From Deltaproteobacteria bacterium HGW-Deltaproteobacteria-19 (GTDB lineage Bacteria; Desulfobacterota; Syntrophia; Syntrophales; PHBD01): a stretch of DNA of 48,181 nucleotides. This document shows, piece after piece, positions 15,290 to 27,179 of this stretch (positions within the stretch are counted from its first letter, which is position 1; each line of letters begins with the position of its first letter). Both the position numbers and the translations under genes were made by a program. Under the pieces are notes generated by a model, which was not told the DNA's origin, made no database searches, and saw only the letters and a program-made list of their open reading frames with translations. The stretch covers positions 20,028-68,208 of the forward strand of contig PHBD01000025.1 in assembly GCA_002841865.1 (NCBI GenBank), read 5' to 3'.

Positions 15290-15340
15290 AAAAAAGGTCG
15301 GATCTTTTTTGCACTGCAAAAACAAATCCGGCCTTTTTTT
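15290..15340. terminator. bidirectional hairpin between convergent genes, REP-like
   Basis: AAAAAGGTCGGAT (15291-15303) pairs with ATCCGGCCTTTTT (15326-15338) with one wobble, and A/T tracts flank it on both sides. It can terminate the plus-strand gene and phoR. The phoR stop codon (15339-15341) lies on its edge. It belongs to the same family as the hairpin at 14121. Confidence 0.7.
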
Positions 15341-17090
15341 AGATCTGGAGGGCGGGAGGGAAGCGGAGGGAGACCGTCGTACCCCGGCCCAGGCGACTGT
15401 CGATGAGCATGAATCCTCCATGGGCCGCCAGGATGTGCTTGACGATGGACAGCCCCAGCCCAGTACCGCCCATTTCCCGGGAGCGGGTCCGGTCCACCCG
15501 GTAAAACCGCTCGCCGATGCGGTTGATTTCGCCTTCGGGGATGCCGATCCCGGTGTCGCTGATCCGGATGATGGCCCATCCGGTAGCGTCGGTCTCCGCC
15601 GCAATGCCGATTCTTCCTTCTTCGGGCGTAAACTTCACGGCGTTGTCGAGGACGTTGAGGAGGGCCTGAACCAGCCTGTCCCGGTCGGCTCGCAGGGGAG
15701 CCAGGTCCGACGGGATCTCGCAATCCAGGGTGATCCTCTTTTGCCGGATCCGTTCTTCCAGGACCGGCAGAACCTGGTCCAGGGCCTCAGCCAGGGGGAC
15801 CTCCTCAAAGGAGAATCGTGTTTCTCCCAGTTCGATGTTGGAAAGCGTCAGGAGGTCATCCAGAAGGCGGTTCAGGCGTCGGGCCTGCTCCTCGATGATC
15901 ATGAGGAAGCGTGCAGACTGCTCGGGCTCCTCCACCGTCCCGCTGCGGAGCGTTTCCACAAACCCCAGAATGGCCGTCAGGGGGGTCCGGATCTCGTGGG
16001 CCATGTTGGCGACGAAGTCGATCCGCATCTGCTCCAGCCGCTTCATCCGCGTCACGTCATGGAAGACGAAGACCGTCTTTTCTTCCCCCGGATCCCCCTG
16101 CACCGGATCAATGCTGACATCCAGGACAAGGGATTGAGGCTTTCCCAGCACCAGCTCTCCCGTCAGGGGCCTGTTCATCTTCCGGAATTCGTCGAACAGA
16201 TTATGAAGATCGACGTTCCGGAAGGCCTCCATCAGGGTCTTGCCGGTCACGTCTCCGTACCGGTCCGAGATCATGTCCCGGAACGCCCGGTTGTACCCTT
16301 CGATCCGGCCACCCGTATCCAGGAGCATGATTCCCTCGCTCATGCCGGCAAACGTGGCGATGAGCTTCGCCCGTTCCTCCCGGAGCTCCGCAACCTGTCC
16401 CTGCAGTTCCGCCACCAGGTGGTTGATGTTTTCCCCCAGGAGTTTCATTTCGGCGGGACCCCGGACGATCAGTCTGCCCGAGAGTTCGCCATGGCGCAGC
16501 CGGTCGGTGAAGAGCTCCATCTCCCGGATCGGGGAAGCGAGACGCCAGGAGAAGAAGGCCGCGAGCAGGAGAGATGCCGCCAGGGCCAGGAGACCCGTGA
16601 CCAACAGGGACTCGTGGAGCTGCTTCAGGGAAGTCCGGACATCCGTGAGGGGCAGGGCAAGCCGGATGAAGCCGGGTTCCCCGGCGCCGCTCTTGATCGG
16701 GAGGGCCACGTAGAGCATGTCCACGCCGAGGGTCCGGCTGTAGCGGACGGCCCGCCCTTTGCCTCTCAGCTTCGCTTCCTGGATCTCGGGACGGTTGATA
16801 TGAATCTCCCTGACTTCCGCCTGCCTCACCGATTCGGCGAGGACCTTTCCGCTCGAATCGACTACCGTGACCCGGGCGCCGGTGATCCGCGCGAGATCGT
16901 CTACCTGGCGGACGACCTGCGCCAGCGTGCCCAGGTCGATGATCCGCGCATGGGCCGTCAGTGTCGCCTCGTTCCGCTCCAGGGCGGTCTCCCGGATCTG
17001 CCGGCTCAGCAGGGTATAGATCATCCCGAACGTCAGCAGGACGATGACGAGGTAGGTGGCGAGAATGCGGAAGAAGAGCCTGTTCTTCAT
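15339..17090 (-). CDS. phoR: PhoR phosphate-regulon sensor kinase
   Basis: A 583-residue membrane kinase: transmembrane segment at about 8-28, a periplasmic domain of about 130 residues, a second segment at about 162-181, HAMP to about 235, PAS at about 245-350, HisKA with His365 in ANMAHEIRTPLTA, and HATPase_c with DTGIGIPEGE and GTGLGLSIV. This is the long PhoR/PnpS-type layout, with a real periplasmic domain unlike E. coli PhoR. The ATG at 17090 overlaps the phoU stop as TGATG and is preferred to one 21 bases upstream. It should phosphorylate PhoB when phosphate is low and be restrained by PhoU and the Pst transporter. Confidence 0.92.
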   Translation of the reverse strand: MKNRLFFRILATYLVIVLLTFGMIYTLLSRQIRETALERNEATLTAHARIIDLGTLAQVVRQVDDLARITGARVTVVDSSGKVLAESVRQAEVREIHINRPEIQEAKLRGKGRAVRYSRTLGVDMLYVALPIKSGAGEPGFIRLALPLTDVRTSLKQLHESLLVTGLLALAASLLLAAFFSWRLASPIREMELFTDRLRHGELSGRLIVRGPAEMKLLGENINHLVAELQGQVAELREERAKLIATFAGMSEGIMLLDTGGRIEGYNRAFRDMISDRYGDVTGKTLMEAFRNVDLHNLFDEFRKMNRPLTGELVLGKPQSLVLDVSIDPVQGDPGEEKTVFVFHDVTRMKRLEQMRIDFVANMAHEIRTPLTAILGFVETLRSGTVEEPEQSARFLMIIEEQARRLNRLLDDLLTLSNIELGETRFSFEEVPLAEALDQVLPVLEERIRQKRITLDCEIPSDLAPLRADRDRLVQALLNVLDNAVKFTPEEGRIGIAAETDATGWAIIRISDTGIGIPEGEINRIGERFYRVDRTRSREMGGTGLGLSIVKHILAAHGGFMLIDSRLGRGTTVSLRFPPALQI

Positions 17091-17785
17091 CAGGCGTTCC
17101 GGTCCGGGCATTCAGGATACTGGTGGCGGACGCTATGGCCCGTCACCATGTAGATGACCATATCGGCGACACCCTTGGCATGGTCGGCGATCCGCTCCAG
17201 GTTCTTGGAGATCTGCATAATCAGGAGCGCCCGGTGGATCGTCCGGGGATCCTCCATCATGAAGGTCAGCAGTTCCCGGAAGATCTGGTCGTTGAGGCAA
17301 TCCACCGTGTTTTCTTCCTGGCGGACCTCGTTGGCCAGGGCGCAGTCGTCCCGGACGAGGGCGTCCAGGCTTTTCTGGATCATCCCCCGGGTGATCTCGG
17401 CCATCCGGGGCAGGTCGATGTAGGGTTTGAGCTGGGGCTCGTCGTTGAGGGCGATGGCCTTTTGGGCGATGTTGACGGCCATGTCGCCGATCCGCTCCAG
17501 GTGCCCGTTGATCTTGATGGCCGTGGTGATGAACCGGAGGTCCCGGGCGGCGGGCTGCCGCAGGGCCAGGAGCTTGATGCACCTCTCCTCAAGTTCCATG
17601 TCCAGGGTGTCGATCCGCTCGTCCTCGGCGATGACCCGGCGGGCCAGCGCCGAGTCCCGCTCCAGGAGCGACCCCATGGCCTGCTCGATGGCCTTTTCCG
17701 TGAGGGCCCCCAGGTACAAAAGGCCTTCCTTGACCTCCTGAAGCTCCCGCTCGTAGTGACTGCTGGTGTGACGCTTCTCCTCCAT
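17090..17785 (-). CDS. phoU: PhoU phosphate signalling protein
   Basis: A 231-residue all-helical protein with the two PhoU repeats, each showing the family metal-binding motif: ERIGDMAVNIAQKA in the first and ERIADHAKGVADMV in the second. PhoU links the PstB transporter to the PhoR kinase and represses the Pho regulon when phosphate is plentiful. The ATG at 17785 follows AAGGAG. The much longer open frame upstream is pstB read in another frame. The gene lies 14 bases after pstB and overlaps phoR by one base. Confidence 0.95.
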   Translation of the reverse strand: MEEKRHTSSHYERELQEVKEGLLYLGALTEKAIEQAMGSLLERDSALARRVIAEDERIDTLDMELEERCIKLLALRQPAARDLRFITTAIKINGHLERIGDMAVNIAQKAIALNDEPQLKPYIDLPRMAEITRGMIQKSLDALVRDDCALANEVRQEENTVDCLNDQIFRELLTFMMEDPRTIHRALLIMQISKNLERIADHAKGVADMVIYMVTGHSVRHQYPECPDRNA

Positions 17786-17799
17786 GCCCGCGCTCCTTT

Positions 17800-18570
17800 T
17801 CAGCCGAAACGGCCGGTGATGTAGTCTTCCGTCTGCTTCATGTCGGGTTTCGTGAAGATCTTCTCCGTCACGTTGAACTCGATCATCTTGCCCAGGTAGA
17901 AGAACCCCGTGAAGTCCGACACGCGGGCCGCCTGCTGCATGTTGTGGGTGACGATGATGATTGTATACGTCTTTTTCAGCTCTTCGATCAACTCCTCGAT
18001 TTTCGCCGTCGAGATGGGATCCAGGGCCGAGGTCGGCTCGTCCATGAGCAGGATGTCCGGCTTCATTGCCAGGGCCCGGGCGATGCAGAGGCGCTGCTGC
18101 TGGCCGCCGGAGAGCATCATGGCCGACTGGCCGAGGATGTCCTTCACCTCGTCCCACAGGACCGCCTGCCGGAGGCTCCGCTCCACCAGGGCCTCCAGGT
18201 CTGCCTTCCCGCTGACACCCGCCAGGCGGGGCCCGTAGGTGATGTTGTTGAAAATTGATTTCGGAAACGGGTTTGGCTTCTGGAAGACCATGCCGATCCG
18301 GCGGCGGACCTCGACGGGGTCCACGTCGGGCTCGTAGATGTTCCGGCCTTCGAAGAGGATCCGGCCTTCCACACGGCAGCCGTCTATGAGGTCGTTCATC
18401 CGGTTGAGGAGCCTGAGCAGGGTGGACTTGCCGCACCCCGAGGGGCCGATGAGGGCCGTCACCCGGTTCGTTTCGAAGGCCATGCTGACGTCCGTCAGGG
18501 CCTGAAATTCCCCGTAGTAGAAGTTGACGTTCTCCGTCCGGATGATGATCCGGTCTTCCTGATTCACCAT
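17800..18570 (-). CDS. pstB: PstB phosphate ABC transporter ATPase
   Basis: A 256-residue ABC ATPase with Walker [10 protein letters not shown], signature [14 protein letters not shown], Walker [14 protein letters not shown] and the H-loop [17 protein letters not shown] near the end is characteristic of PstB. It powers high-affinity phosphate import through PstC/PstA. The ATG at 18570 is chosen because AGGAG lies six bases before it, whereas the ATG two codons upstream directly abuts that site. Confidence 0.95.
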
Positions 18571-18586
18571 TTCCATCTCCTGTGCG

Positions 18587-19456
18587 CTACCATTTCTTTC
18601 TCCTGCGGATTGTTGCCCGGATGAGGATGGCGACGAGGTCGATCCCGAGGACGAGGAGGATGAGCACGAGCACCGTTCCGTACTGGAGCGGCCGCGTCTC
18701 TTCGATGTTGGTTCCCGCCGTCGCCAGCACGTAGATGTGGTAGGGGAGCGCCATGACCTCGTCGAAGACGGACGTGGGGAGCTTGGCGGTGAAGAACGCC
18801 GCCGCCGTGAACATGATGGGCGCCGTCTCCCCGGCCGCCCGGCCGAGGCCGAGAATGGAGCCCGTCAGGATGCCCGGGAGGGCCGTCGGCAGGACGATGC
18901 GCAGGATGGTCTGCCACTTCGACACGCCCAGGGCGAGGGAGGCCTCCCGGAACGTCTGGGGGACCGACTTGAGGGCCTCTTCCGAGGCGCCGATGATGGT
19001 CGGCAGGATCAGGAAACCCAGCGTCAGGGAGCCCGCCAGGATGGAGGACCCGAATTTCAGCATGACCACGAAGAAGCCCAGTCCGAAGAGCCCGAAGACC
19101 ACCGACGGCACCCCCGCCAGGCAGTTGATGCCGATCCGGATGACCCGGATGACCGGACCCTGCCTGGCGTATTCCGTCAGGTACACCGCCGAGACGATCC
19201 CCAGCGGCAGTCCCACCGCGATGGCGCCGACGGTGAGGTAGAAGGTCCCCACGATGGCCGGCATGATTCCACCCTTCGTCATGGCCTCCCTCGGCGGCTG
19301 GGTGACGAACTCCCAACTCAGGGCGCTGATTCCGTGAACGATGATGTAGGCCAGGATCCCCCCCAGGGCCAGGGCGAGGATGAAGGCTGACAGGCGCACG
19401 AGGCCGAAGAAGACGGTTTGCTTGATGTAGCGGTATCGGATTGCGGTCGTGGTCAT
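18587..19456 (-). CDS. pstA: PstA phosphate ABC transporter permease
   Basis: A 289-residue inner-membrane permease with about six hydrophobic segments and the EAA-type cytoplasmic loop [34 protein letters not shown] is the PstA signature. It forms the phosphate channel with PstC. Its ATG overlaps the pstC stop as ATGA, so the two are translationally coupled. Confidence 0.94.
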
Positions 19457-20340
19457 AGCGTTCCCGATCCGACCTCCTTGAATTTGTTGGAAATGTAGTC
19501 CGCGACCAGGTTGAACGCCAGCGTGATGAAGAAGAGCACCATGCCGGTCGCGAACAGGGCCTGGTAATGGAGGCTCCGGAACGGGGCCTCGCCCATCTCC
19601 GCGGCGATACTGGCGGGCATGGGCCGGACCGAGTCGAAGAGGCTCTCCGGAATGGCGGCGGCGCCGCCGGCCACCATCAGCACGACCATCGTCTCTCCGA
19701 TGGCCCGCGACATCCCGAGGATGACCGCCGTCGAGATCCCCGAGAGGGCCGACGGGATGACCACCCGGAGGATGGTCTCATGGGTTGTCGCCCCCAGGGC
19801 ATAGGACGCCTCCTTGTATTCCCGGGGGACGGCGTAGATGGCGTCCTCGGAGATGCTGGCGATGGTGGGGACCGCCATCAGGGCGAGGATCAGGGAGGCG
19901 TTTACGATGTTCAGCCCCGTGGGCAGGTCGAAGGTGTCCTGGAGCCAGGGGGCCACGACGACCATGCCGAAGAAGCCCAGCACGACCGAGGGAAGCCCCG
20001 CCAGAAGCTCGATGACGGACTTGAAGACGTCCTTGAGGAGGGGCGGTGCCACCTCGGCGATGTAGACGGCCGTCAGGATGCCGATTGGGATGGCGATCAG
20101 CGTCGCCAGGACCGTCACGATGACGGACCCCACGATGAGGGGCCAGATCCCGAACGAGGGCGGATCATACGTCGGATACCACTCCATTCCGAACAGGAAG
20201 TCCTTCACGGACACCTGGCGGAAGAGGGGCAGTCCCTCCCGGAAGAGGGACACGACGATCAGTCCCAGGATCAGGATCGATACAAGGGCAAAGGAAAAGA
20301 AGACCGCCCGGATGACGGCCTCCTTCTGTTTCCGATTCAT
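19453..20340 (-). CDS. pstC: PstC phosphate ABC transporter permease
   Basis: A 295-residue permease with an N-terminal membrane segment at about 13-33, the DFLFGMEWYPTYDPPSFG periplasmic stretch typical of PstC, and the loop EASYALGATTHETILRVVIP. GMSRAIGETMVVLMVAG corresponds to the family signature. It pairs with PstA. It lies 15 bases after pstS. Confidence 0.94.
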   Translation of the reverse strand: MNRKQKEAVIRAVFFSFALVSILILGLIVVSLFREGLPLFRQVSVKDFLFGMEWYPTYDPPSFGIWPLIVGSVIVTVLATLIAIPIGILTAVYIAEVAPPLLKDVFKSVIELLAGLPSVVLGFFGMVVVAPWLQDTFDLPTGLNIVNASLILALMAVPTIASISEDAIYAVPREYKEASYALGATTHETILRVVIPSALSGISTAVILGMSRAIGETMVVLMVAGGAAAIPESLFDSVRPMPASIAAEMGEAPFRSLHYQALFATGMVLFFITLAFNLVADYISNKFKEVGSGTL

Positions 20341-20355
20341 CCACCGCTCCTTGTG

Positions 20356-21204
20356 TTACTTCTTTTTGCCCTTTGTCGCGGGGACGTCGGCCTTGAGGGG
20401 TACGAATCCATTGGTGGCAACGATCTTCTGTCCTGCCGGGCTCTTCACGAAGGCGAGGAACTTCGCCGTTTCGCCCCTGGGTTCGCCGTTGGTGTACATG
20501 TAAAGCTCACGGGACATGGGGTATTGCCTCGACAGGGCCGTCTCCGGGGTCGCCTGGACGCCGCCCACGTTCACGGCCTTCACGCCCTTCTTGACGTAGC
20601 CCATCCCCAGGTAGCCGATGCTGTAGCGGTTCTTCGAGACAGCGGTGTAGACGGCGCCGTTGGAGGCCAGCATCTGGGCCCGGGGGGACACCTTGGCCTT
20701 CTTCATGACGAAATGGTCCCAGGACTCGAAGGTCCCCGACGAGGAGTCACGCGAGATGACGACGATCTTCATGTCCTTGCCGCCCACTTCCTTCCAGTTG
20801 GTGATCTTTCCCTGGTAGATCAGGCTGAGCTGCTCGGTCGAGAGGTCCTTGACCGGGTTCGAGTTGTGAACGACGGGAACGAGGGCATCGAAGGCCACCA
20901 CGTGGGCGACGGGCTTGATTCCCTTCTTTCCGGCGAAGGCGATTTCCTCCTTCTTGATCTCCCGGGAAGAGTTGCCGATATCCGCCGTGTTGTCGATGAT
21001 GGCCTTGATTCCTTCCCCGGAGCCGCCGCCGGACAGGGAGATCTGGACTCCCTTGTTTGCCTTCATGTAGCCCTCCAGCGCCCCCTGGGCGATGGGCAGG
21101 ACCGTGGTGGATCCCTTGATGACGATGCTCTCCGCCGCAATCGCGGGCGCTACGGTCACCATGCAGCACAGAAGCGCCAGGATCGCCTTCTTCCAGATGT
21201 TCAT
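20356..21204 (-). CDS. pstS: PstS periplasmic phosphate-binding protein
   Basis: A 282-residue binding protein with a signal peptide of about 23 residues ending APAIA. KGSTTVLPIAQ, SGGGSGEGIKAI and SRDSSSGTFESW are the phosphate-contacting loops of PstS. It captures phosphate in the periplasm for PstCAB. There is no lipobox cysteine, so it is a soluble form. The ATG follows AAGGAGG. Expression should start at the Pho-box promoter between phoB and this gene. Confidence 0.95.
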   Translation of the reverse strand: MNIWKKAILALLCCMVTVAPAIAAESIVIKGSTTVLPIAQGALEGYMKANKGVQISLSGGGSGEGIKAIIDNTADIGNSSREIKKEEIAFAGKKGIKPVAHVVAFDALVPVVHNSNPVKDLSTEQLSLIYQGKITNWKEVGGKDMKIVVISRDSSSGTFESWDHFVMKKAKVSPRAQMLASNGAVYTAVSKNRYSIGYLGMGYVKKGVKAVNVGGVQATPETALSRQYPMSRELYMYTNGEPRGETAKFLAFVKSPAGQKIVATNGFVPLKADVPATKGKKK

Positions 21205-21234
21205 AATTTCCTCCTTCGAGTTTGATGGGGACAG

Positions 21235-21240
21235 TTTATG
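21235..21240 (-). promoter_or_regulatory. -10 element of the pstS promoter
   Basis: CATAAA on the minus strand lies eight bases downstream of the last Pho-box repeat. This is the usual arrangement when PhoB replaces the -35 contact. The second Pho box has CTTAAT at the same distance. Confidence 0.5.
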
Positions 21241-21248
21241 GCAACATT

Positions 21249-21288
21249 GTTACAGGAGGATGACAGCGCGGTGAAAGGTTGGTTACGT
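21249..21288 (-). promoter_or_regulatory. Pho box with four 11-bp repeats, upstream of pstS
   Basis: Read on the minus strand, the 7-mers ACGTAAC, CTTTCAC, CTGTCAT and CTGTAAC follow each other at exactly 11-base spacing. E. coli Pho boxes are CTGTCAT-type repeats at this spacing, usually in pairs. The site lies seven bases after the phoB stop codon and about 45 bases before the pstS ATG. An almost identical copy is at 23973-24012. Confidence 0.85.
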
Positions 21289-21295
21289 CTGGACG

Positions 21296-22000
21296 CTATT
21301 CCGGCGTGCCGTCGGCAAGCCTGTACCCGATTCCGCGGACGGTCTGGATCAGTCTCGGTTTTTCCGGATTTTCCTCGATGCGGGCACGGAGGCGTTTGAT
21401 ATGGACGTCCACGGTGCGAGGTTCGACGTAGACCTCGTCTCCCCATACCTGCTCCAGGATCTGGTCCCGTGTGTAGACCCGGCCGGGCCGGCGGGCCAGG
21501 AAGGCGAGAAGCCGGAGTTCCTTGGCGCTCAGGTCCACCCGGCGGTCGCCCACGGAAACCTCGCACGTGGAGAGGTTGATCCTGAGCAAGCCTCCATCGA
21601 TGATCTCTTCCGGCAGCGTTTTCTGCTCCATCCGCCGTCGGAGGACGGCCCGGACCCGGGCGACCAGCTCCCGGACGCTGAAGGGTTTTGTCACGTAGTC
21701 GTCGGCCCCCATCTCGAGGCCGAGGACGCGGTCCACTTCATCCCCCCGGGCCGTGACCATGATGATGGGGAGGGCCATCGTCCTGGGGTCACGGCGCAGC
21801 ATCCGGCATAAATCGAGCCCCGGAATGCCCGGCAGCATCAGGTCCAGGAGCAGCAGGTCAGGATTGCCGCTCCGGGCCAGTTCAAGGGTGGCCTCGCCGT
21901 CATAGGCCTTGATAACGTCGAACCCCTCCTTCGCCAGGTTGAAGGCGATCAGTTCCACGATGTCTTTCTCGTCGTCGGCTACGAGGATGCGGGACGCCAT
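21296..22000 (-). CDS. phoB: PhoB phosphate-regulon response regulator
   Basis: A 234-residue OmpR-family regulator with a receiver domain (Asp53 in LLLLDLMLPG, Lys in TKPFS) and a C-terminal winged helix (LSAKELRLLAFLARRPGRVY and VDVHIKRLRARIE). It should bind the two Pho boxes in this window. It has its own sigma-70 promoter and lies upstream of the pstS Pho box. Basal PhoB supply therefore does not depend on that site. Confidence 0.94.
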   Translation of the reverse strand: MASRILVADDEKDIVELIAFNLAKEGFDVIKAYDGEATLELARSGNPDLLLLDLMLPGIPGLDLCRMLRRDPRTMALPIIMVTARGDEVDRVLGLEMGADDYVTKPFSVRELVARVRAVLRRRMEQKTLPEEIIDGGLLRINLSTCEVSVGDRRVDLSAKELRLLAFLARRPGRVYTRDQILEQVWGDEVYVEPRTVDVHIKRLRARIEENPEKPRLIQTVRGIGYRLADGTPE

Positions 22001-22047
22001 CGGGCCCGTCCTCCTTTTCAGAGAGATTCGAATGCTGTTCGGAGTGC

Positions 22048-22076
22048 ATTATACAGAAGATGACGGATTCCCACAA
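22048..22076 (-). promoter_or_regulatory. sigma-70 promoter of phoB
   Basis: On the minus strand TTGTGG (22076-22071) and a perfect TATAAT (22053-22048) are separated by 17 bases. Transcription would start near 22041, about 40 bases before the ATG. Confidence 0.6.
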
Positions 22077-22143: not shown

Positions 22144-23148
22144 TCACTCGAAGATTGCCGTCAGCAGCAGGTACAGGCCGGCGGATAGAACGCCCGAGAT
22201 CGGGATCGTCAGAATCCACGCCCAGATGATATTTCCGGCGACTCCCCATCGGACGGCGGATAATCTTTTCGTTGCTCCGACGCCCATGATCGCGCCGGTG
22301 ATCGTATGGGTCGTGCTCACGGGAATTCCCGCAACGGAGGCGCCGATAATGGACATGGCCGCCGCCGTTTCCGCACAGAAGCCGCCCATAGGCTGAAGCT
22401 TCGTGATTTTGGTTCCCATCGTCTTGACGATCCGCCATCCCCCCGACATGGTTCCCAGGGCAATGACCGTGTAGCAGGCAATGATAACCCAGAAGGGGAT
22501 ATGAAACGTCGGACCGAGATAGCCGCCGCTGAAAAGAACCAGCGCGATGATGCCAATGGTTTTCTGGGCGTCGTTCATGCCGTGACTGATGCTGTAAACG
22601 GCCGCAGATAAGAGCTGCAACCTTCTGAACAGATGGTTGGACGTGCTCACGCTGCCGAAACGGGTGAGGTTCAGGACGACAACCATTAAAACAAGTCCGA
22701 GTATCAAACCGATTACGGGAGACAAAACGATAAAGCTTGCCGTTTTGATAATCCCTTTCCAGACAAGAACGTCGAACCCGCCCCTTGCGAGACCGGAACC
22801 GATCAGTCCTCCGATCAGGGCGTGGGAGGAACTGCTTGGCAGGCCGAACCACCAGGTCAATAAATTCCAGATGATGGCGCCTCCAAGGGCCGATATGATC
22901 AGCGTGTTGCTGACAATCGACGTGTTGATGATACCGGTTCCGATTGTTTTCGCCACGTGTGCGTCGAACAGGAAAACAGCCACGAAATTGAAGAAGGCCG
23001 CCCAGATGACGGCCTGATGGGGTTTCAGGACCTGCGTCGATACGACGGTTGCGATCGAGTTGGCGGAATCATGGAATCCGTTAATGTAATCGAAGATTAA
23101 CGCAATAATGATGATGGATATGACGACGGCCAGCGTTGGATCGATCAT
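22144..23148 (-). CDS. pit: PiT-family inorganic phosphate transporter
   Basis: A 334-residue polytopic transporter with the two PiT signature repeats: GFHDSANSIATVVSTQ near residue 25 and SHGMNDAQKTIGIIAL in the middle. The SSSHALIGGLIGSGLA and VSTTHTITGAIMGVG pair is also typical. It imports phosphate, or metal-phosphate, with a cation gradient. Its ATG overlaps the stop of the upstream receptor-like gene as ATGA. It should be induced by phosphate starvation through the Pho box at 23973. The usual DUF47 partner is absent. The gene looks less GC-rich than its neighbours by eye. Confidence 0.93.
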   Translation of the reverse strand: MIDPTLAVVISIIIIALIFDYINGFHDSANSIATVVSTQVLKPHQAVIWAAFFNFVAVFLFDAHVAKTIGTGIINTSIVSNTLIISALGGAIIWNLLTWWFGLPSSSSHALIGGLIGSGLARGGFDVLVWKGIIKTASFIVLSPVIGLILGLVLMVVVLNLTRFGSVSTSNHLFRRLQLLSAAVYSISHGMNDAQKTIGIIALVLFSGGYLGPTFHIPFWVIIACYTVIALGTMSGGWRIVKTMGTKITKLQPMGGFCAETAAAMSIIGASVAGIPVSTTHTITGAIMGVGATKRLSAVRWGVAGNIIWAWILTIPISGVLSAGLYLLLTAIFE

Positions 23149-23885
23149 GTCTGTTCGTTCTCGTTGTCGGGTTCGGTTTCGACAGGTTCGGGGGGAAGAT
23201 CGTTGAGGATCGACCGGGCGTTGTAGATCCCGAAGCCGATGCCCGCCAGAACGAGGAAAATCAGGAAGGCGGAAAAGCTCCGGTACGCTTCCAGTTGTGT
23301 TTTTGCAAGTGTTTCAGCAGTATGCAGGCGGTTGTTCGCCTGAACTTTGATCAGGCCGACAAGGGCATCTATTTTATCCGTCGGTTCGCGATCGATCCCC
23401 CGGACCATTTCATCCACAAGGACCGCGCTTTTCAGGTCGGAGTGGTTGTAGTGCTTCAGGGCGTCTCGATACTTCTCTCCCAGCTGCTTGTGGATGCTTA
23501 TCGTTTCCGAGATCTCGGGAACGGACAGACCCATCGTTGCTGCCATGTTCAGTAACGATTGCAGATACTCGTTGACTTTCCTGTCCTCCTCGTCGAAGGC
23601 CCGCACATGAAAGTCATAGAGGTGAGGATCATTGCCTCGCAGGAGAATGTTTTTCCATTCCTGGACCTGTCTTTTAAAGTGAACCTGCGCCTGCCTGCCG
23701 GTATCGACGGTTTTGATCAGCTCCTGCCCTTCAAACACAGTCGTATGAAGGCGCTGGTTGGTTTCCACGACGGCGATGAGGCCATACAAGCCGATTACGA
23801 CGGTCATGACGATGAATATCCCGATCGCAATGACGACTCGGCGACGAAGGGAAATATCCTGAAAAGAAGTATCCGGGCCTTTCAT
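23145..23885 (-). CDS. receptor-like membrane protein with MCP-type sensory domain only
   Basis: A 246-residue protein with a transmembrane segment at about 16-40, an extracytoplasmic helical domain, a second segment at about 203-222 and a short acidic tail. The stretch HFKRQVQEWKNILLRG (69-84) is the conserved core of a ligand-binding domain common in chemoreceptors of this lineage. No HAMP, methyl-accepting or kinase domain follows. It overlaps pit by four bases and shares its Pho-box promoter, where many bacteria have a DUF47/PhoU-like regulator. It may sense phosphate or gate Pit; that is inference. The ATG follows AGAGGT at a rather long distance. Confidence 0.75.
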   Translation of the reverse strand: MKGPDTSFQDISLRRRVVIAIGIFIVMTVVIGLYGLIAVVETNQRLHTTVFEGQELIKTVDTGRQAQVHFKRQVQEWKNILLRGNDPHLYDFHVRAFDEEDRKVNEYLQSLLNMAATMGLSVPEISETISIHKQLGEKYRDALKHYNHSDLKSAVLVDEMVRGIDREPTDKIDALVGLIKVQANNRLHTAETLAKTQLEAYRSFSAFLIFLVLAGIGFGIYNARSILNDLPPEPVETEPDNENEQT

Positions 23886-23972
23886 AAAGATATTACCTCT
23901 GTTTTTTAACCTGCTCTCGTATCTAAACCATGTTCCTTTTCATGCCTGACAGGGGCTGATTAAGCGAAGTAT

Positions 23973-24012
23973 GTTACAGGAGGATGACAATGCGGTGAAA
24001 AATTGATTACGT
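23973..24012 (-). promoter_or_regulatory. Pho box with four 11-bp repeats, upstream of the receptor-pit operon
   Basis: On the minus strand the 7-mers ACGTAAT, TTTTCAC, TTGTCAT and CTGTAAC occur at exactly 11-base spacing. They are followed eight bases later by CTTAAT as -10 (23964-23959). Most of the 40 bases are identical to the pstS site, including the spacer CCTC. It lies about 90 bases before the ATG at 23885. Confidence 0.82.
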
Positions 24013-24082: not shown

Positions 24083-24129
24083 AGAGAAAAACAAAAGTTA
24101 ACAAATCTGAAATGGAAAAGGAGGAGCGG

Positions 24130-24453
24130 ATGAAGCATATTCTGTCGGTGGCCATTGTCTTTTTCATGATTGCATCGATTCCGGGCCTGTGCCCCGCGGA
24201 GAGCGCCATTGATGCCAGGATGGAGCCGGCACGGCAGATGGAAGAGATTCCCGCCTTCATCGATGTCGTGTTCCTTCGCCCCGCCGGGGTTGTCGCCTGC
24301 ATCGCGGGACTGGCGGCGACCGTCCTGGCCCTCCCGTTCGCCCTGCCGAGCGGAAGCATGGACAAGGTCACCAAGGCCCTGATCAATGATCCGTTCTATT
24401 TTACCTTCAAGAGACCCATCGGCGAGGGGGTGCGGCCGGCCGTCCTGGATTGA
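24130..24453 (+). CDS. small membrane protein of unknown function
   Basis: A 107-residue protein with a signal peptide of about 22 residues, a hydrophobic segment FLRPAGVVACIAGLAATVLA near the middle, and a conserved-looking tail LPFALPSGS...DPFYFTFKRPIGE. Short proteins with this RP-G...P-S-G-S...F-T/K-RP-G pattern recur in delta-type genomes, but no function is known to me. The ATG at 24130 has a GGAGGAG site; the ATG 18 bases upstream has none. It sits alone, divergent from the Pho-regulated pit operon, without a Pho box of its own. Confidence 0.72.
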   Translation: MKHILSVAIVFFMIASIPGLCPAESAIDARMEPARQMEEIPAFIDVVFLRPAGVVACIAGLAATVLALPFALPSGSMDKVTKALINDPFYFTFKRPIGEGVRPAVLD

Positions 24454-24596: not shown

Positions 24597-27179
24597 ATGC
24601 GCATGCAGGGCCTGTTCGACTGGTTTTCCATAGAGAACAAGGGCCTGTACTACAAACTGTACGTTGTCTTCGGCCTCTTCTTTCTCGTTCCTGTCTTCGG
24701 CTTCCTCTACTTTGCCGTCAAGTACGACATCCTCAACGACGAGTTCATCCCCATCTATTTTATATCGCTCCTTCTCCTGTTTTTCTTCGGCTTTTTCCTG
24801 CTTCGGAAACTGGCGGACGACATCATCGGCCTGTCCCGGCACGTGAACAAGACCCTGGCGGATAATCTGCATGGGCAGGAACAGCTGCCCGTTCATACGG
24901 ATGAGATGAAGGGGATCATCGCCTCCTTTCAGACCCTCGAACAGGAACTCCGGTACAGCTTCCAGAAATTGGACAAGAAGAGCCAGGACATCACGACGCT
25001 GAAGGAGCTGGCGGATCTCTGCTACATCACCTTCAATCCGGACGACCTGCTGCATATCACCCTCGAGAGGGCCCTCAAGCTCGTGGACGCCGACATCGGC
25101 TCCGTCCTGATCCTGGAGAGGCCCCGACGGGACATTTTCCAGGTGGTCGCTTCCATCGGCCTCGGCGGCATGGTCAAGAAGGGAGACCGGATTTCCTACG
25201 CCGAGAGCGTCGCCAAGTACGCCGTCATCAACAGGACCCCCCTGGTGGTGGAAGATATCGAGAACGATACCCGGTTCGGGCGGGTGTCCCGAAGACAATA
25301 CGCAACGAAGTCGTTCATCTGCATGCCCCTGAAAACCATTCATGAGGTGATCGGGGTCGTCACGATTTCCCGGAGCCGGGCCGATATGGCCTTCCGGCCG
25401 GAAGACGCGGAGCTCCTGAGTCCCCTCCTGAGCAATGCCGCGTTCACTTATGACAACATCCAGCTCATCCAGCGGAACGAAAGGCAGGATGTTCACCTGG
25501 CTTCCCTGGAGAACGTGATCAAGGCCATCAATTCAAGCCTGAAGCCGGCGGAACTGGTGCAGATGATCCTGCACGAGGTCCACCAGGCCATGCCGTATGA
25601 CGTGGCCGTTCTCGTCATCCGGGACCGGTCTGACAAGGGAGGGCTTCTGATGAACGAAGTCCTTGCCTTTGCACCGACAAACCTCACCCCCGGGCCTCTT
25701 CCCGACATGGAGGGGTCCATCCTGGAGCGGACCCTGCGCATGGAAAACCTGGTGATCCTGCGGGGCGGGGACGTTTCGAGCCACCCCCTGGACCGGCTCC
25801 TTTTTGGAGACGACCCGGGAACTTTCTGCATCCTGGCCCCTCTGAATGCGGAAGGAGGCTCCACCGGGGCCCTCGTACTCCAGAACGTCGCCGCGGATGC
25901 CCTCTCCAATTTCAAGGATTACCTGGAGGCGATCACCCAAAGCCTGTCCCTGGCCCTGGAGAAGGAGCAACTCGTTTTGTCCGCCCTGAAGCGGAACCAG
26001 GAGCTTGCGGCAATTCGACAGATCGGAAGCGCCCTGTCCACCGCAACCTTCGATATGGAAAAAGTCTTGAACTACACGATGGACATGATCCGGGAAGCGA
26101 TCAACGTGGAGGCGGGCACCCTGTTCCTCGTCGAGGGTGACGACCTCAAGTTCCAGGCGGCCTTCAACATCGATCTCAAGCCCATCCCGGAGATCCGGAT
26201 CAAGCTGGGGCAAGGGATTGCCGGCTACTGCGCCTCCCGGGGGGAAGCGATCATCGCCGACGATGTCCGGAACAACCCCCATTTCTATTCCGAAATCGAC
26301 GGGCGAACGAACTTCAATACCCGCTCTGTTCTCTGCGTACCCATGATCTCCCAGAGCCGCGTCATCGGCGTCATCGAGGTGATCAACAAGATCGGGGCGG
26401 TATTCGATGATAGCGACAAGCATCTCCTCCAGTCCATCGCCTCGTCGGTGAGCATTGCCATCGAAAATGCCCATCTGTACCGCGAGACCCGGACCATGGC
26501 CGAGAAGGAGCGGAGCATCCGCAGCGTCTTCCAGAAATATGTGCCCAAGGCCGTGGTGGACGAGATTATCCTGAGCACCGAGTCCGGAAGGTCCCGCGTC
26601 GAGGAATTCAAGACCGTGACGCTCCTCAATATCGACATCCGCAATTTCTCCCTTCTCTCCCGGGACATGGGACCCCAGAAGACGGTCGCCCTGCTGAACG
26701 AATTCTTCGCCGTCATGGGGGAGATCGTGTTCCACGAGGGCGGTATTGTGGACAAGTACCTGGGGGACGGATTCCTGGCCATTTTCGGGGCGCCCGTATC
26801 CAGTGCCACCGACGCCGAGAACGCGGTTCGAGCGGCCATGGAAATGATGTCCCGGCTGGGTGACCTGAACATAGAGTTCGAGCGGCGCTTCTCGGCAACC
26901 CTGGTCATGGGCATCGCCGTCCATACGGGGGAAGTCGTCGTCGGCAACATCGGATTCGAGAAGAAGATGGATTATACGGTCATCGGTGATGCGGTGAACG
27001 TCCTCTTCCGGATCCAGGATCTTTGCCATGTCCTGCCAGATTCCATTCTTATGAGCGGGAGGACACGCCGGGCAACCCAGTCCAATTACCTGGTTGAGGA
27101 AGTGACGCCGGCCGAGCCGACGGATTCCATGGGAAACAACCGGGTATTCCGCCTGCTGGGACGGCAGGAAACCGCCTGA
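24597..27179 (+). CDS. membrane class III nucleotide cyclase with three GAF domains
   Basis: An 860-residue protein with two transmembrane segments (about 20-41 and 50-70), a linker, three GAF-like domains (about 140-290, 310-460 and 475-640) and a class III cyclase domain (about 665-845). Asp680 in NIDIRNFS and Asp724 in KYLGDGF are the metal ligands. Lys790 and Asp798 in KKMDYTVIGD fit adenine recognition, and Asn801/Arg805 complete the transition-state pair, so adenylate cyclase is the best call. The ATG follows AGAGGAAAT. Cyclic nucleotide binding at one or more GAF domains could give feedback, as in cyanobacterial CyaB1, but ligand residues were not checked. Confidence 0.85.
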   Translation: MRMQGLFDWFSIENKGLYYKLYVVFGLFFLVPVFGFLYFAVKYDILNDEFIPIYFISLLLLFFFGFFLLRKLADDIIGLSRHVNKTLADNLHGQEQLPVHTDEMKGIIASFQTLEQELRYSFQKLDKKSQDITTLKELADLCYITFNPDDLLHITLERALKLVDADIGSVLILERPRRDIFQVVASIGLGGMVKKGDRISYAESVAKYAVINRTPLVVEDIENDTRFGRVSRRQYATKSFICMPLKTIHEVIGVVTISRSRADMAFRPEDAELLSPLLSNAAFTYDNIQLIQRNERQDVHLASLENVIKAINSSLKPAELVQMILHEVHQAMPYDVAVLVIRDRSDKGGLLMNEVLAFAPTNLTPGPLPDMEGSILERTLRMENLVILRGGDVSSHPLDRLLFGDDPGTFCILAPLNAEGGSTGALVLQNVAADALSNFKDYLEAITQSLSLALEKEQLVLSALKRNQELAAIRQIGSALSTATFDMEKVLNYTMDMIREAINVEAGTLFLVEGDDLKFQAAFNIDLKPIPEIRIKLGQGIAGYCASRGEAIIADDVRNNPHFYSEIDGRTNFNTRSVLCVPMISQSRVIGVIEVINKIGAVFDDSDKHLLQSIASSVSIAIENAHLYRETRTMAEKERSIRSVFQKYVPKAVVDEIILSTESGRSRVEEFKTVTLLNIDIRNFSLLSRDMGPQKTVALLNEFFAVMGEIVFHEGGIVDKYLGDGFLAIFGAPVSSATDAENAVRAAMEMMSRLGDLNIEFERRFSATLVMGIAVHTGEVVVGNIGFEKKMDYTVIGDAVNVLFRIQDLCHVLPDSILMSGRTRRATQSNYLVEEVTPAEPTDSMGNNRVFRLLGRQETA

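Follow-up and report, generated by a model that had tools for sequence, protein, structure and literature searches.

Pit is usually taught as a constitutive, low-affinity importer, and the locus described here raises the question of what a Pho box nearly identical to that of pstS is doing in front of a pit gene. The window, by which we mean the entire 48,181-nucleotide stretch analysed, lies on contig C71 of the source genome (G000; 3,976,372 bases) and carries, in this order on the minus strand, genes for a TarH-like membrane protein, Pit, PhoB, PstS, PstC, PstA, PstB, PhoU, and a PhoR-like kinase. The pit gene (22144–23148, 334 aa) is full length, with a complete PHO4 domain (PF01384, 1.4e-98, profile positions 1–350 of 350), and the closest named relatives of its product are Deltaproteobacteria, Syntrophaceae, and Smithella records, which places the organism very probably in the Syntrophales. 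Behind it lie a phoB-like response regulator gene (21296–22000; TIGR02154 PhoB at 277.7 bits, below the 296.2 cut-off), pstS (20356–21204, phosphate-binding-type PBP_like_2), pstC (19453–20340) and pstA (18587–19456), which both encode an ABC permease domain and are told apart by gene order only, pstB (17800–18576, ABC ATPase), phoU (17090–17785, two PhoU domains), and a phoR/pnpS-like sensor kinase gene (15339–17111) with HAMP, PAS, HisKA, and HATPase domains (PnpS at 372 bits, below the 400 cut-off). In our reading, to which we give a probability of about 0.8, the box before pit is a PhoB-dependent activating promoter, and the Pit behind it serves in starvation beside an everyday, PitR-associated Pit; PhoB binding, activation, transport, and physiology are all inferred here from sequence.

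As the original prediction held, a near-identical second Pho box is present at 23973–24012 on the minus strand, where four direct 7-base half-sites (24012–24006, 24001–23995, 23990–23984, and 23979–23973) follow one another with the 11-base period of PhoB sites. Written as half-sites and spacers, its sequence (ACGTAAT-CAAT-TTTTCAC-CGCA-TTGTCAT-CCTC-CTGTAAC) is identical to the pstS box (minus strand, 21249–21288; ACGTAAC-CAAC-CTTTCAC-CGCG-CTGTCAT-CCTC-CTGTAAC) at 35 of 40 positions, and all five differences are transitions. The agreement covers 25 of the 28 repeat bases and, as had also been claimed, continues into the spacers (10/12). A chance match was rejected, since the runner-up match to the pstS box within the window reached 22/40 and the best match in 100 base-by-base shuffles of the window 24/40. 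Across the whole genome, a three-repeat Pho pattern, composed after sight of both boxes, occurs without mismatch only at the pstS and pit sites, and with up to three mismatches at five places versus two for the reversed control. This search was preferred because searching for two repeats with one mismatch returned 20 places genome-wide, as against 10 for the reversed control; within the window, the 17-base two-repeat pattern was uninformative (three found versus 0.76 expected). One zero-mismatch two-repeat place, in C8, was dropped: by eye, its neighbors are a tRNA and an integrase-like frame, and no phosphate gene was seen nearby. A three-repeat matrix trained on 22 pstS boxes, themselves scoring 19.2–41.4, gave the pit box 30.3, a value slightly favored by the presence of the G000 pstS box in the training set.

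The first gene starts at 23885, 87 bases past the box, and encodes the TarH-like membrane protein (23145–23885, minus strand, 246 aa); pit comes second, its ATG overlapping the stop of the upstream gene in an operon-like manner. The proposal that the box drives the transporter gene needs amending as to the first gene, and would hold for pit as the second, overlapping one. A −10 element had likewise been placed eight bases downstream of both boxes. For pstS the candidate (TAAACT, 21233–21238, minus strand) most likely stands at 10 bases instead, and for pit (23957–23964, minus strand) CTTAAT at 8 bases is the best-scoring hexamer, with TAATCA at 10 as the other candidate, both of them weak and the offset unsure. 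Throughout the order, the best −10 hexamer lies at offset 10 in 19 and at offset 8 in four of 23 pstS promoters, and at these offsets in five and four, respectively, of nine boxed pit promoters. Divergent from the pit operon, on the plus strand, are a gene whose 113-aa product matches no Pfam family (24112–24453) and a gene for a protein with GAF and adenylate/guanylate cyclase domains (24597–27179). Both also neighbor the pit operon in G001, the only other genome available for the genus.

This promoter architecture bears on the direction of control. PhoB at the box might repress the pit operon in starvation, with Pit used when phosphate is plentiful, as in Sinorhizobium meliloti, where passages of PMC8829014 describe Pit regulation as reciprocal to that of Pst; passages of PMC6469041 similarly have Escherichia coli PitB inhibited by the Pho regulon. 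We regard repression as improbable here, because the pit box shares its orientation, its repeat number, and nearly its distance to a −10-like hexamer with the pstS box, because no separate minus-strand promoter that the box could block emerged from a simple sigma-70 scan, and because in two other genomes (G082 and G083) the boxed promoter leads the TarH-like gene, pit, and then pstS, all on the same strand. Another possible arrangement is that the box serves chiefly the membrane protein, or phoB by autoregulation, and that pit is a passenger. The membrane protein gene does come first, and read-through from pit into phoB is possible, as a simple scan of the interval between them detected nothing terminator-like. 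We nevertheless find this hardly credible: phoB is preceded by its own TGTATAAT element (in the region 22000–22060, minus strand), kept in G001, where the pit operon is 26 kb from pst and does not adjoin phoB, and in three further genomes (G019, G056, and G032) boxes precede pit without a TarH-like gene. In the window, a half-site-like CGTCAT precedes the TGTATAAT element of phoB.

The long identity between the two boxes had been attributed either to recent copying of the promoter or to strong selection on the repeats. Recent copying is rejected by the comparison with G001, which keeps both boxes (39/40 identical for pit, 38/40 for pstS), and selection is borne out by the repeats themselves, all 28 bases of which are unchanged between the two genomes in the pit box and the pstS box alike. 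Within each genome, the pit and pstS boxes agree at 35/40 (G000) and 34/40 (G001) positions. For a wider comparison, 28 of 30 pstS loci of the order were scanned, two at contig ends (L128 and L129) being left out. No convincing box was found at three of these 28 loci (G009, G003, and G020), the first two of which are cut by contig ends, so that the stretch taken there may be off, and later comparisons leave out G040, whose box registers poorly, and G007, whose box is high-scoring; 23 pstS loci plus G032 entered the box comparison, 22 the matrix, and 23 the flank and −10 comparisons. Between genera, pstS boxes (253 pairs) agree at a mean of 24.3/40 positions with a maximum of 32, and the 35/40 shared by pit and pstS therefore falls outside their range. 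The spacers, which the original prediction wished to see compared among relatives, are less distinctive, the 10/12 here equalling the highest between-genus pstS value (mean 4.9/12). Elsewhere in the order, pit and pstS boxes of one genome agree at 28/40 (G019), 32/40 (G035), and 26/40 (G032) positions. Upstream of phoB in G001, on the side where the window has pit, lies an array of PhoB-type half-sites (L173:7722–7790, plus strand), which faces a gene for an ABC ATPase with weak similarity to PstB (31%).

A trace of duplication may nonetheless be visible in the flanks. In G000, the pit and pstS promoters agree at 21/40 positions downstream of the box and 10/22 upstream, somewhat above other-genus pstS controls (downstream mean 13.8, maximum 19; upstream mean 5.3, maximum 8), an excess that is only modest because other pairs of pstS promoters reach 29 downstream (mean 16.3, sd 3.3) and 12 upstream (mean 5.7, sd 1.9). 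Could the identity, then, merely reflect a promoter duplication that was inherited without being needed for function? The flank agreement is what such a history would offer, but between G000 and G001 the flanks of the pit box have drifted more (35/40 and 17/22) than the box (39/40, with 28/28 repeat bases), and pit boxes with differing spacers are found in four families, so that we consider it very improbable. What fits best is an old promoter copy, made before the two species parted, whose repeats would since have been held by selection; the older copying itself is possible, as the modest flank agreement hints.

We then placed the locus within its order. Of its 108 genomes with a completeness of 90% or more, 81 matched the Pit protein at E ≤ 1e-30; 92 loci from this set, supplemented by a few genomes of lower completeness, were scored with the matrix from 22 pstS boxes over the 350 bases upstream of each pit operon. 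Three loci with cut genes (L233, L234, and L235) were excluded, leaving 89 classified loci in 77 genomes; contig-edge fragments and distant Pit-like matches of 46–52% identity (G011, the third in G087, G107, and the second in G109) were also left out of the set. Nine of the 89 loci are boxed, scoring 28.1–40.1, and the remaining 80 score no higher than 6.0; none of 300 shuffles scored as high as the nine. The boxed loci fall into four families: f1 (G000 and G001), f14 (G082, G083, and G087), f19 (G019, G035, and G056), and f16 (G032). On the Pit tree (88 rows, with the split pit L165 omitted), the box label changes five times, and at least four changes are forced by well-supported branches.

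The box goes together with a change in the gene preceding pit. An intact PitR is absent from eight of the nine boxed loci versus nine of the 80 unboxed ones (Fisher p 2.8e-6, with relatives that are not independent), PitR being assigned by similarity to the DUF47 protein of G000, with three cases checked against Pfam (PF01865); one of the nine unboxed PitR-less loci (G036) had just 121 upstream bases, which makes its PitR-less label provisional. The association is not strict, because the boxed operon of G035 retains an intact PitR, nine unboxed loci have none, and a TarH-like gene precedes an unboxed pit in G003. Outside the order, five Acidobacteria-type records (L066, L073, L079, L085, and L099) have Pho-box-like sites upstream of DUF47-pit, each resting on two half-sites, and perhaps represent another lineage with a Pho-controlled Pit.

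The first gene of the window's pit operon has no DUF47 match, so this is not a PitR-PitA operon. The second Pit of G000 (C66), on the other hand, has a DUF47 gene in front of it (PF01865, 94.9 bits) and a box score of 6.0. The same division recurs: 12 genomes carry two classified pit genes, and in 11 of them one copy is unboxed with PitR in front, and its counterpart lacks an intact PitR. Six of these 11 PitR-less copies are boxed (G000, G001, G019, G032, G083, and G087), two sit inside the pst operon (behind phoR in G008, between pstS and pstC in G074), one is divergent from pstS at a distance of about 1.2 kb (G058), and one lies 0.8 kb downstream of phoB on the same strand (G097); for the last (G062), no phosphate-gene link was found in the DNA around it. 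The twelfth, G035, is a single-contig genome in which PitR precedes both copies; its unboxed pit (L165) is broken into two reading frames, with an intact PitR ahead of it. Position by pst alone is not the rule, because PitR-pit operons also adjoin pst in G007 and G012.

In relatives, PitR was lost rather than merely absent, since a search of the 17 PitR-less loci recovered 3′ scraps of pitR directly before the pit start at four of them: G083 (E 4e-6), G056 (4e-5), G082 (0.001), and, weakly, G019 (0.029). None was found before pit in G000, G001, or G087. In G082 and G083 the scrap sits between the TarH-like gene and pit, and the TarH-like gene therefore occupies the former place of pitR; in G000 and G001, the stop of the TarH-like gene overlaps the pit ATG.

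The TarH-like protein is itself rare. It was found in seven of 155 genomes of the order (E 1e-8), adjoining and preceding pit in six (G000, G001, G003, G082, G083, and G087) and standing alone in G063; it precedes pit in five of the nine boxed loci, and in G003, where the pit box is missing, the gene is cut to 98 residues. The four other full-length members are 51–91% identical to that of the window. G032 has a match of 22% identity. Across the phylum, a sample of 395 genomes that included members of the order yielded five matches, of which the three outside the order were weak, with no pit in the stretches around them; the relatives in family f31 likewise match weakly and have no pit in the surrounding stretch. 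Hydrophobic stretches near residues 15–40 and 200–222 enclose a four-helix bundle in the AlphaFold2 model (pLDDT 75.7, five sequences), for a predicted layout of transmembrane helix, four-helix bundle, transmembrane helix, and short tail, the protein terminating about 20 residues past the second stretch. The best match in VIA-align 2, on which the fold statement rests, was the ligand-binding domain of the PcaY_PP chemoreceptor (Z 15.1, rmsd 2.2, 128 residues), although helical bundles match easily and designed bundles reached up to Z 14.3. Foldseek returned no match under E 0.001, and the Pfam families TarH (19.6 bits, cut-off 25.2) and 4HB_MCP_1 (15.9 bits, cut-off 27) both scored under their cut-offs. 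A domain search found no HAMP, methyl-accepting, kinase, or other signalling output domain. From gene position, a partner or gate of Pit would be our guess. Going further, the protein could be a new accessory regulator that senses external phosphate, metal, or metal-phosphate, gates Pit, and replaces the cytoplasmic PitR once pit is Pho-boxed, which would divide the order's Pit copies into PitR-gated everyday ones and starvation-induced, PitR-free ones; we put this forward tentatively and think it rather doubtful. For its part, the observed split between the two kinds of Pit would lead one to expect PitR to be superfluous or detrimental where Pit is induced by starvation, and the TarH-like protein to be a substitute.

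Returning to activation, the reading that we prefer, starvation induction of pit is likely and could proceed as follows. Under phosphate limitation, PhoR would phosphorylate PhoB, and PhoB~P would bind the four direct repeats, which stand at the −35 place, and recruit RNA polymerase to the weak −10 element. The resulting transcript would cover the gene for the sensor-like membrane protein as well as pit, and may extend into phoB. The PitR (DUF47) Pit without a box would presumably provide everyday uptake, and the PitR-less Pit would join Pst in starvation.

How far this departs from known systems depends on the reference chosen. The earlier statement that E. coli Pit is not a Pho-induced system agrees with passages of PMC6469041, in which PitA is likely constitutive and PitB inhibited by the Pho regulon, but not with a passage of the review PMC7866108, which has the second E. 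coli Pit induced at low phosphate. Compared with the S. meliloti orfA-pit operon, the locus resembles it in a phosphate-stress-controlled pit, as predicted here, with an accessory gene in front; pit is downregulated in stress there (according to passages of PMC8829014), whereas the box geometry here is that of an activated promoter. From PhoB-activated pstS promoters, with which it shares the box architecture and the approximate box-to-−10 distance, the pit promoter differs in driving a Pit-family importer and not an ABC importer. PitR-PitA operons similarly have an accessory-type gene that overlaps or abuts pit, but the front gene here has no DUF47 match, its product being a membrane protein with a predicted four-helix bundle; passages of PMC13170248 describe PitR as a Pit-associated protein with one PhoU_div domain (PF01865) and report that in Staphylococcus aureus it helps keep the phosphate response off.

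The closest parallel is Streptomyces coelicolor, which, in the account given in passages of the review PMC7866108, also has two Pits, one Pho-boxed and the other box-less with an ancillary gene: pitH2 carries four 11-nt repeats, is bound by PhoP, and is upregulated at limiting phosphate, with basal transcription in the absence of phoP, and pap-pitH1 combines an ancillary gene with the lack of a Pho box. The ancillary pap product would, we infer, be of the PitR/DUF47 type. The two cases differ in phylum, in the regulator (PhoP there), in setting, pitH2 lying among phosphate-unrelated genes and the present pit beside phoB-pst, and in the companion of the boxed Pit, here a TarH-like membrane protein. 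SCO1846, a small membrane protein, presumably adjoins pitH2 itself. In a survey, as reported in passages of PMC13170248, SCO1846 adjoins pitA in 45 of 926 genomes and is present in 25 of 45 PitA genomes without PitR, and is thus another non-PitR companion of Pit. Among the best-ranked literature, titles and abstract starts held no report of a TarH-like protein beside pit or of Pho boxes in Syntrophales. A PhoP-controlled second Pit is thus already known from Streptomyces, and what appears to be new here is the loss of PitR and the presence of a sensor-like protein in its stead on a starvation-type Pit. Contrary to the textbook picture of Pit, four families of this order hold Pho-boxed pit copies, eight of nine without intact PitR, and the similar split in Streptomyces makes this look like a repeated solution.
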